Shown here: positions 18,877 through 21,526 of the stretch, one piece after another
Position numbering within the stretch: the stretch's first letter is position 1
How the letters are laid out: every line of letters starts with the position of its first letter
From: Haloterrigena sp. KLK7
GTDB taxonomy: Archaea > Halobacteriota > Halobacteria > Halobacteriales > Natrialbaceae
Length of the DNA: 64,000 nt
Assembly (NCBI RefSeq): GCF_037914945.1
Contig: NZ_CP149788.1
Span: 186,001 to 250,000, forward strand
Direction of reading: 5' to 3'
Made by a program: the position numbers and the translations under genes
Notes under the pieces: model-generated
The model's input: the letters and a program-made list of their open reading frames with translations, nothing else
Told to the model about the DNA's origin: nothing
Database searches by the model: none

Positions 18877-19144
18877 CACCCCACCCCTGGCTTCCGTCGT
18901 AGTTTCCACCCCACCCCCCACGTTTCCGTCGTTTCCGGACACCCCACCCCAGACTTCCATCGTTTCCGAGCACCCTCCATCTGACTTCCGACCCTCCCGG
19001 ACCCCCACCCCTGGCTTCCGTCGTTTCCGGCGTGTCCGAGTGAACGATACCCTCGTCGCACCCCTCGTTTCCGTCGTAAATTCCGACCCCCCACGTTTCC
19101 GTCGTTTCCGGACGCCCACCCCGGATTTCCGTCGTATATTTGGG
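18877..19144 (+). repeat. Tandem array of about eight origin-recognition-type repeats (3' side of cdc6)
   Basis: About eight direct copies of a unit of about 26-33 bases follow one another: a C-rich half (CACCCCACCCC) and a TTTCCGTCGTTTCC half. Copies begin near 18877, 18908, 18939, 18969 (degenerate), 19001, 19057, 19086 and 19112. The G/C-string plus dyad organisation and the adjacency to orc1/cdc6 match haloarchaeal origin recognition boxes (ORBs). The units are nearly contiguous without unique spacers, so this is not CRISPR. Confidence 0.75.
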
Positions 19145-19161
19145 TTCGATGATCTGAAAAC

Positions 19162-20406
19162 TTAGTCTTGCTCCCAGTTCTGCATTCGGCTATCCTCCAG
19201 GATGGTCTCGCGAACGACTTGCGGGTCTTCGATCAATCGATTCTGGAGGTGGATCCCGCCTGCGCTCCCCTTGTTGATCTTCTCGATTTCGACGACACCG
19301 AGGAACGCCTGCTCCTTCAGAATGTCTCGGAACCGGCGAACCGAGAGCACGTCCATATCGAGGTGGTCACAGATTTGCTCGTACTGGTCGTACACGCGAC
19401 TCGTGAGGAAGGCGTCGTCATCGGAATGAACGCTGAGTTCAGTCAACGCGAGCAGTGCGGCTTTCGCCTGTGTCGGTGCGCCGTTGACGAGTTCCCGAAA
19501 GCGATCCTTTTCGGCGTGTTGCTGGGCCTGTCGAACGTGTTTCTCCTGAACTTTCTCGGCGCCGTCCTCGTAGGCGACCTCGCCGGCGTGTCGCAGGATA
19601 TCGATCGCCTTCCGAGCGTCGCCGTGCTCTTGTGCGGCGAATGCGGCGGAAAGCGGAATCACATCGTCGGAAAGAACTCCCTCCTGAAACGCGTCCGCGC
19701 GGTTGAGCATGATCTCTCGAAGCTGGTTCGCATCGTAGGGTTTGAAGAACAACTCCTTGTGCTGGAAGCTGCTCTTGACGCGTTCGTTCGTGTTGTCGAC
19801 GTACTGGATTTTGTTACTGATCGCGATGACACCGATGCTACAGTCGATTTTCCCCGCCTCCTCGGCTCGTGAGAGTTTCATGAGAAGACTATCGTCGTTC
19901 ATCAGATCGATCTCGTCGAGGATGATGATGGCGGAGTCGAACTGCGCATCGAGCGTGTTCCAGAGCAGTTTATAGTATTTCGACGTACTGAGACCGGTGT
20001 GCGGGACGGTTATATCGGTGACGGACTCGTCGTTTAATTTCGCGGCGAGAGAGGATATCGCCTGTGTTTCCGTGTTATCCTCAGCGCAGTCGATATACGC
20101 CGTTCCGATCGTAATCCCCTCTTGAGCCGCACTTTGCGCGCGTTGACAGACGTGCCTCGAGACCAACGATTTTCCCGTTCCCGTCTTTCCGTAAATCATC
20201 ACGTTTTCCGGAGAGTACCCGTGAACGGCGCCGTTCAGACGCTTCGCCAACTTCGAGATTTCTTCATCGCGACCGACGATCCGGTCGGCGTCGGGAACGT
20301 GACCGATCTTCAGGAGATCCTTGTTCGAGAAGATTCGATGCCCCGACTCGAAGAGTGGATCGTCGACGGAACCGGACGAGGAGTCAGGCGTCATTTGATA
20401 GACCAT
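19162..20406 (-). CDS. cdc6: Orc1/Cdc6 replication initiator
   Basis: The 414-residue protein has the archaeal Orc1/Cdc6 layout: GRDEEISKLAKRLNGAVHGYSPENVMIYGKTG, Walker A GKTGTGKS, Walker B IIILDEID, a sensor-1-like GVIAISN and a C-terminal winged helix (about 310-400, with VYDQYEQICDHL and RRFRDILKEQAFLG). It binds origin repeats and loads the MCM helicase. The start is an ATG at 20406 or a second at 20395; a TATA-like box at 20424-20430 fits either. Repeats on both sides of the gene share its presumed binding sequence, suggesting a self-contained initiator-origin unit. Confidence 0.93.
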   Translation of the reverse strand: MVYQMTPDSSSGSVDDPLFESGHRIFSNKDLLKIGHVPDADRIVGRDEEISKLAKRLNGAVHGYSPENVMIYGKTGTGKSLVSRHVCQRAQSAAQEGITIGTAYIDCAEDNTETQAISSLAAKLNDESVTDITVPHTGLSTSKYYKLLWNTLDAQFDSAIIILDEIDLMNDDSLLMKLSRAEEAGKIDCSIGVIAISNKIQYVDNTNERVKSSFQHKELFFKPYDANQLREIMLNRADAFQEGVLSDDVIPLSAAFAAQEHGDARKAIDILRHAGEVAYEDGAEKVQEKHVRQAQQHAEKDRFRELVNGAPTQAKAALLALTELSVHSDDDAFLTSRVYDQYEQICDHLDMDVLSVRRFRDILKEQAFLGVVEIEKINKGSAGGIHLQNRLIEDPQVVRETILEDSRMQNWEQD

Positions 20407-20423
20407 AATGTGAGCGGCGGGGG

Positions 20424-20430
20424 TATAAAA
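20424..20430 (-). promoter_or_regulatory. TATA box of cdc6
   Basis: TATAAAA on the plus strand (TTTTATA read in gene direction) lies 18-35 nt before the two possible cdc6 start codons and next to the first upstream origin repeat at 20443, so initiator binding could affect cdc6 transcription. Confidence 0.55.
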
Positions 20431-20442
20431 CTAGTGGGAGGG

Positions 20443-21050
20443 CACACCCCGTGTTTCCGTCGTAATTCAGTCGCAAGAGGGGGTTATAGAGATTGAAGAG
20501 GGGAAATAAGATATATGATAGGATTACCAAGTTTCCGACGTAAATCGGAATACCGGCGATAGCGGGACGATAGAGACGATCGAGGAAGATTCTCTTCGTC
20601 ACCCCCACACCCCACGTTTCCGTCGTAATTCGATGAGAGGGGTTGGGTGCAGTTGAAGGAAGGGTGCTGAGAGGAATTGTCAGAGAGAATCCGCAGAAGC
20701 CAGACCTATTGGACGAGAAATCCGGCTATGCGAACTAACTAGAACAGTTAGAGGAGGATTCTAGACAGCCTCCGTTTCAGCCGACAAAACGAAACACATT
20801 CGTTTTGCCAATAAACGAAATTAGCTTAGTGGACTATAGTCAACCTAGCCTCTTTAATCTAGCTATCTAAAACGAGGAAACGCAATCTGGAACCGGCAAG
20901 AAAAACCGACATCTGACACCCCCACCCTCTCTCTTGAAGAAACGACGGAAACGTGGGGGGTGTGGGTTCACCGCTGTCATCTACCGTTGTCTCGGTCTCG
21001 GAACTGTTCGAATCTTGCCTCGATACGTCGGAAACGTGGGGTGGGTGTAT
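20443..21050. other. oriC: Replication origin: AT-rich unwinding zone bounded by inverted origin repeats
   Basis: Copies of the TTTCCGTCGTAATTC/G-string element lie at about 20443-20468, 20526-20550 and 20600-20631 in one orientation, and at about 20938-20968 and 21024-21050 in the opposite one (GGAAACGTGGGG form). Between the inner inverted pair is about 300 bases of AT-rich, gene-free sequence (20640-20935). This is the canonical haloarchaeal arrangement: cdc6, then inverted ORBs flanking a duplex-unwinding element. Whether the replicon is a chromosome or a megaplasmid cannot be told from the window. Confidence 0.8.
20785..20807. repeat. Perfect inverted repeat in the origin unwinding zone
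   Basis: CAAAACGAA and TTCGTTTTG form a perfect 9-bp inverted repeat with a 5-base spacer, in the middle of the AT-rich zone between the inverted origin boxes. It may be a hairpin or a protein site. Confidence 0.6.
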
Positions 21051-21217: not shown

Positions 21218-21526
21218 CTACATCGACTGAGACGTTGTGTGGAGTTGATCGACGAAATCATCGATGAGTTCCATCGCTGTATCGTACTCGCTTTCGGACG
21301 TACTACCGCTGTTGACTGGAAGATCGTAAACAGTTATTTCTGCCCGCTCGAGCGCAGTTAGTTCGCCTTCTTGGCACTCGAGGTTGAGAATCGCGCCGGC
21401 AAAGATGACGATTACGCGACGTTCGTGAACGTCCAGAAACTGGATCTCGAGGCGGTCTAAGACGGCGGTGACGTCGATCGCCGACGGAAACGCACACTGC
21501 TGCGAGACGTCGACAGTTTCACTCAT
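21218..21526 (-). CDS. Small acidic protein of unknown function
   Basis: A 102-residue acidic frame beginning MSETVDVSQQCAFPSAIDV and ending in an acidic helix (MELIDDFVDQLH). Composition (many Asp, Glu, Val and Thr) is typical of haloarchaeal proteins, unlike nearby noise frames. No family is recognised. It lies just outside the last origin repeat, reading toward the origin. Confidence 0.5.
   Translation of the reverse strand: MSETVDVSQQCAFPSAIDVTAVLDRLEIQFLDVHERRVIVIFAGAILNLECQEGELTALERAEITVYDLPVNSGSTSESEYDTAMELIDDFVDQLHTTSQSM

Follow-up and report, generated by a model that had tools for sequence, protein, structure and literature searches.

Initiator-binding sites that lie beyond the minimal origin and restrain initiation include datA of Escherichia coli, incA of P1, and incC of F. 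For ori2 of Vibrio chromosome 2, it is established that RctB handcuffs initiator sites. How archaea coordinate multiple origins and replicons is still poorly understood; the sole brake tested so far is oriC2D of Haloarcula hispanica. Its 11 ORBs, located downstream of the initiator gene, lack origin (ARS) activity, restrain oriC2, and could be deleted only together with oriC2 (PMC3936714). With rising ORB number, oriC2D makes oriC2 plasmids less active and lowers their copy number, and chromosomal oriC2D also reduced replication of a separate plasmid; its authors proposed that initiator titration was probably responsible and called the structure widespread (PMC3936714). oriC2 itself exhibits strict incompatibility. 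In Halobacterium NRC-1, Orc4 is dispensable, and pNRC200 carries other initiators. The locus described here resembles oriC2-cdc6E-oriC2D in having an inverted set of ORBs ahead of cdc6 and, directly behind the gene, a dense array of the same motif pointing one way, the downstream cluster by which an oriC2D-type structure is recognized. With a probability of about three in four, it is a self-contained Orc4 origin-initiator module on a ~397-kb megaplasmid-like replicon, with a 3′ array that would act as a brake.

A single ORB motif on both sides of an orc4-type gene

The locus lies in a 64,000-nucleotide window of contig C2 (396,905 bp), within a 4.64-Mb haloarchaeal genome. Twelve strong copies of a single ORB motif were detected across 18878–21047 (20.4–39.2 bits), using a 30-column scan motif derived from those 12 sites. 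The conserved core of the motif is CCCCACG-TTTCCGWCGT. Seven of these, along with one decayed copy, lie behind cdc6, while three on the plus strand and two on the minus strand lie before it. Elsewhere on the whole 396,905-bp contig no strong ORB was found (top score 17.0 bits), and matches of at least 12 bits were as numerous as expected from shuffled sequence. Confinement of the ORBs to this locus on C2, together with the distinct motifs carried by other cdc6 families, lends good support to the original prediction that the motif is specific to this initiator. Direct reading and repeat searches also placed the repeats, the cdc6 gene, and the AT-rich zone at the coordinates originally given. 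The element “TTTCCGTCGTTTCC”, described there as a dyad, is really a short direct repeat (TTTCC-GTCG-TTTCC) that is complete in some array copies only.

The initiator gene occupies 19162–20394 on the minus strand and encodes a full-length protein of 410 aa with AAA+ and winged-helix domains and matches to TIGR02928 (446 bits), Cdc6_C, and Cdc6_lid. The open frame reaches further, to an ATG at 20406, and translation probably starts at 20394 (MTPD...), because the ATG conserved among orthologs stands there. Identity to named Orc4 proteins was 91 to 96% (91% for Orc4 of Halobacterium pNRC200). In 33 plasmid records the best match was at least 80% identical to the initiator, and all remaining matches fell below 60%; by sequence, the protein is a member of the Orc4 family, separated by a clear gap from other Cdc6 proteins. 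Of 391 genomes drawn from the class, 55 had strong matches (own genome counted), representing 26 of 86 genera. The family occurs on plasmids of 58 kb to 1.6 Mb and also on chromosome-size contigs. The Orc4 gene is the sole Orc1/Cdc6 gene found on C2, and in complete plasmids of 72, 101, 114, 220, and 698 kb Orc4 was the sole tblastn match. Since Orc4 is the lone Orc1/Cdc6 protein detected on C2 and on these five plasmids, in a search that covered Orc1/Cdc6-type initiators, the locus likely contains a working origin.

The origin side and the orc4 promoter

Upstream of the gene, an inner left ORB at 20604–20633 (plus strand, 39.2 bits) opposes an inner right ORB at 20935–20964 (minus strand, 37.7 bits) and an outer right ORB at 21018–21047 (minus strand, 33.2 bits). 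An extra, weaker ORB at 20519–20548 (plus strand, 20.4 bits) is absent from most orthologs. The zone between the inverted ORBs, about 20634–20934, is the presumed unwinding element. Its predicted framing by inverted repeats held, whereas its AT-richness is modest (53%, and 56% at 20700–20900, as compared to 41% for the window). Inverted ORBs and a G-string 5′ of cdc6, with this zone between them, argue well for the predicted origin architecture, in which Orc4 would bind the inverted ORBs at 20441–20633 and 20935–21047 and unwind the intervening DNA. GC skew across C2 exhibited no significant turn at the locus. Around 200 kb the cumulative skew rose to a broad local peak, which was set aside as origin evidence because, whichever window size was used, 20 to 39% of positions were equally extreme. 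Data on binding, marker frequency, or ARS activity were found for none of the Orc4 origins. A small ORF upstream of the origin (21218–21526, minus strand) has no Pfam or NCBIfam match, and homologs were detected in only two other loci, L031, which has two copies close to its origin, and L032.

The remaining 5′ site, at 20441–20470 (plus strand, 31.4 bits), is a promoter-proximal ORB conserved in position among orthologs, and it lies immediately upstream of the orc4 TATA box (TTTTATAC on the gene strand; 20423–20430, minus strand). In every ortholog aligned (11), an ORB directly precedes the conserved TATA box, with near-fixed spacing of the box to the ORB and of both to the start codon. From this arrangement autoregulation can reasonably be inferred, Orc4 on the promoter-proximal ORB probably limiting its own transcription.

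A one-way array behind orc4

The 3′ array extends from 18878 to 19142, beginning ~20 bp past the orc4 stop codon between convergent genes, with all sites on the plus strand. Seven of the eight tandem repeats originally predicted are good copies, at 18878–18907 (30.6 bits), 18910–18939 (36.6 bits), 18941–18970 (29.6 bits), 19002–19031 (33.0 bits), 19055–19084 (32.4 bits), 19083–19112 (34.5 bits), and 19113–19142 (32.9 bits). The eighth, fourth in order (plus strand, about 18972 to 19001 or 19002), is in register but decayed, with 60% identity and a score under the motif threshold. Start-to-start distances are mostly 28 to 32 bp, with a single wider gap.

Initiator sites in the array equal or outnumber those of the origin, in keeping with the earlier suggestion of a second, independent site of assembly or initiation. 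Such a role is nonetheless extremely unlikely, as the array is GC-rich (37% AT) and lacks an unwinding zone, its sites point one way with no inverted partner, and in H. hispanica the corresponding array did not replicate autonomously on its own (PMC3936714). The array may instead act on expression or RNA, as a 3′ end, a transcription roadblock, or a set of G-rich elements in the cdc6 transcript; its start close behind the stop codon, between convergent genes, and the plentiful G-runs on the sense strand are compatible with this. We consider it very improbable, given that the entire ORB is conserved beyond the G-runs, including the GGAAA half, that each array duplicates the motif found at the origin 5′ of the gene it follows, and that G-quadruplex pattern matches are confined to one spot.

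Conservation of the array among Orc4 loci

Sixty-seven distinct Orc4 loci were read, with ORBs gathered above a score threshold that leaves badly decayed copies uncounted. A downstream array of two to nine copies was present in 66 of the 67. The usual layout comprises two plus- and two minus-strand ORBs upstream and two to nine ORBs downstream, the commonest downstream set being four ORBs at 21, 52, 80, and 107 bp past the stop codon. All array sites (288/288) occupy the same strand as the gene-proximal origin ORBs. Among 123 distinct array copies from a 41-locus set, the TTTCCGWCGT core and the CCCC run are near-invariant, and the intervening ACG is relaxed. In 60 of 65 loci, array sites averaged ~3 bits less than the 5′ sites alongside them. 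In a single case among the 67 loci (L167; G236:C2), no 3′ array was detected though the 5′ origin is normal, which makes L167 a natural test case. On pHS3 of Halobacterium salinarum R1 (L119), orc4 is truncated near residue 238 and has lost its array, while on the 5′ side three of the four ORBs persist.

The range of copy number and the variable spacers are features that passive, functionless duplication of ORBs might leave. This explanation is very doubtful, in view of the retention of the array over many genera with a near-invariant core and of the arrays found in unrelated families. Leaving aside the supplementary origin lists of PMC3528665, which lay outside the comparison, the near-universal array in the Orc4 family, the weaker 3′ sites, their strict orientation, and the ORB abutting the cdc6 TATA box are new here.

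Arrays behind other cdc6 genes

A dense array behind cdc6 had been judged less usual, a view contradicted by its publication as oriC2D, by its frequency among Orc4 loci, and by its presence behind several other cdc6 genes of the same genome. Comparison with those genes, advised in the original prediction, revealed arrays of their own motifs at loci L004 and L011. At L004 (G000:C1, around 1005876–1007099), 15 one-way ORBs (ACCCCAGGTGTCGAGTGAAATC) extend over ~870 bp behind cdc6 and three matching ORBs precede it, an array larger than oriC2D. At L011, a blind motif search recovered five one-way ORBs of its own motif behind cdc6. The H. hispanica genome was recognized through a 100% match of pHH400, and cdc6E was assigned by blind recovery of 11 ORBs, all pointing the same way, behind a single chromosomal cdc6; PMC3936714 reports the same number. 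In each array-bearing family (Orc4; L004, 15 copies; L011, five; cdc6E, 11; L129, five), the array consists of the family's own 5′ motif, and the L004, L011, L129, and cdc6E arrays likewise share the orientation of their gene-proximal origin ORBs.

As a control, the blind method was applied to 239 random C2 loci. Five same-strand 3′ sites were obtained once, and never more; at least three same-strand 3′ sites plus at least two 5′ sites were obtained at three loci. The 7-, 11-, and 15-copy arrays are therefore firm and five-copy arrays probable, while three-copy cases are unsafe because random loci also yield them (3/239), and those such as L007 were rejected as firm cases. Another cdc6 gene (L013, 1501–3198, minus strand; G000:C1:1533239–1534936) encodes a protein that groups with the H. 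hispanica Cdc6 beside the chromosome start (oriC1 type). Its AAA+ domain is interrupted by an in-frame insert of about 150 aa that matches nothing in Pfam or NCBIfam.

Possible modes of action of the array

By analogy with oriC2D, the array at 18878–19142 would take up Orc4 in cis and thereby keep initiation from outrunning gene dosage; it possibly also pairs with the origin ORBs through Orc4. Titration, raised as a possibility in the original prediction and well supported by the H. hispanica precedent (PMC3936714), is the best reading of the array. The ~3-bit deficit of 3′ sites relative to 5′ sites counts against a sink of maximal affinity. Counting against a brake module are also L167, which keeps its origin with no detectable array, and the dispensability of Orc4 in NRC-1, though pNRC200 has other initiators.

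Strict array orientation is not demanded by titration; pairing is a live alternative. In this mode, which seems possible though rather unlikely, Orc4 would handcuff or loop the array to origin ORBs, and depletion of free initiator would be secondary. The orientation shared by every Orc4 array site, the same rule in the unrelated L004, L011, L129, and cdc6E families, the lower scores of array sites, and the adjacency of arrays to the origin are all consistent with pairing, as is the handcuffing established for Vibrio ori2. Handcuffing is also a control mode of iteron plasmids. However, tandem duplication by itself preserves orientation within a family, and we know of no case of Orc1/Cdc6 handcuffing. 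Nor was conserved helical phasing seen; spacings of 27, 28, 31, and more bp led to rejection of strict phasing. Furthermore, the H. hispanica chromosomal array lowered replication of a separate plasmid, an effect that simple titration explains (PMC3936714). In a broader and still less probable version, Orc4 modules would be mobile, self-regulating cassettes built in three tiers, namely a promoter ORB, the origin, and a polarized array, the one-way array exerting restraint by initiator-mediated pairing and not titration. If true, this would give archaea, through Orc1/Cdc6, an equivalent of the handcuffing of iteron plasmids.

Cells of H. lacusprofundi carry one Orc4 module on the chromosome and another on pHLAC01 (L106 and L142), with about 90% identity between them over 2.3 kb, and one 167-kb Halorussus plasmid carries two 100% identical 4.2-kb Orc4 origin segments (L153 and L154). 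Such coexistence differs from the strict incompatibility of oriC2 and is at odds with simple incompatibility. An array in nearly all Orc4 loci and recurrent arrays of different motifs behind other cdc6 genes suggest that the brake is general. The Orc4 loci also provide a natural series of array sizes, two to nine copies on one initiator, for tests of dose response and mechanism.

Comparison with known systems

Among the nearest known relatives of the locus, alongside those on other haloarchaeal plasmids, is the orc4 locus on pNRC200 of Halobacterium NRC-1, which has the same initiator (91% identity) and the same ORBs, with 2 + 2 origin ORBs and four array ORBs as compared to 3 + 2 and seven to eight here. 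As in the 39-mers of Vibrio ori2, initiator sites outside the minimal origin would restrain initiation; the initiators are unrelated, and the likeness is a functional analogy. The same holds for datA, incA of P1, and incC of F, whose initiator proteins are likewise unrelated to Orc4. In contrast to the arrangement they share, Orc4 and H. hispanica Cdc6E are only 33% identical, belong to separate supported clades, and have different ORB sequences, and oriC2-cdc6E sits on the main chromosome whereas the present locus is on a plasmid-like replicon. Membership of Orc4 in the Cdc6E family, or of its origin in the oriC2-cdc6E family, was rejected on the basis of this identity and these clades, and the array architecture therefore recurs across distant initiators. 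The locus is real, ordinary in kind, and well conserved, and it joins the published haloarchaeal origins controlled by downstream arrays.
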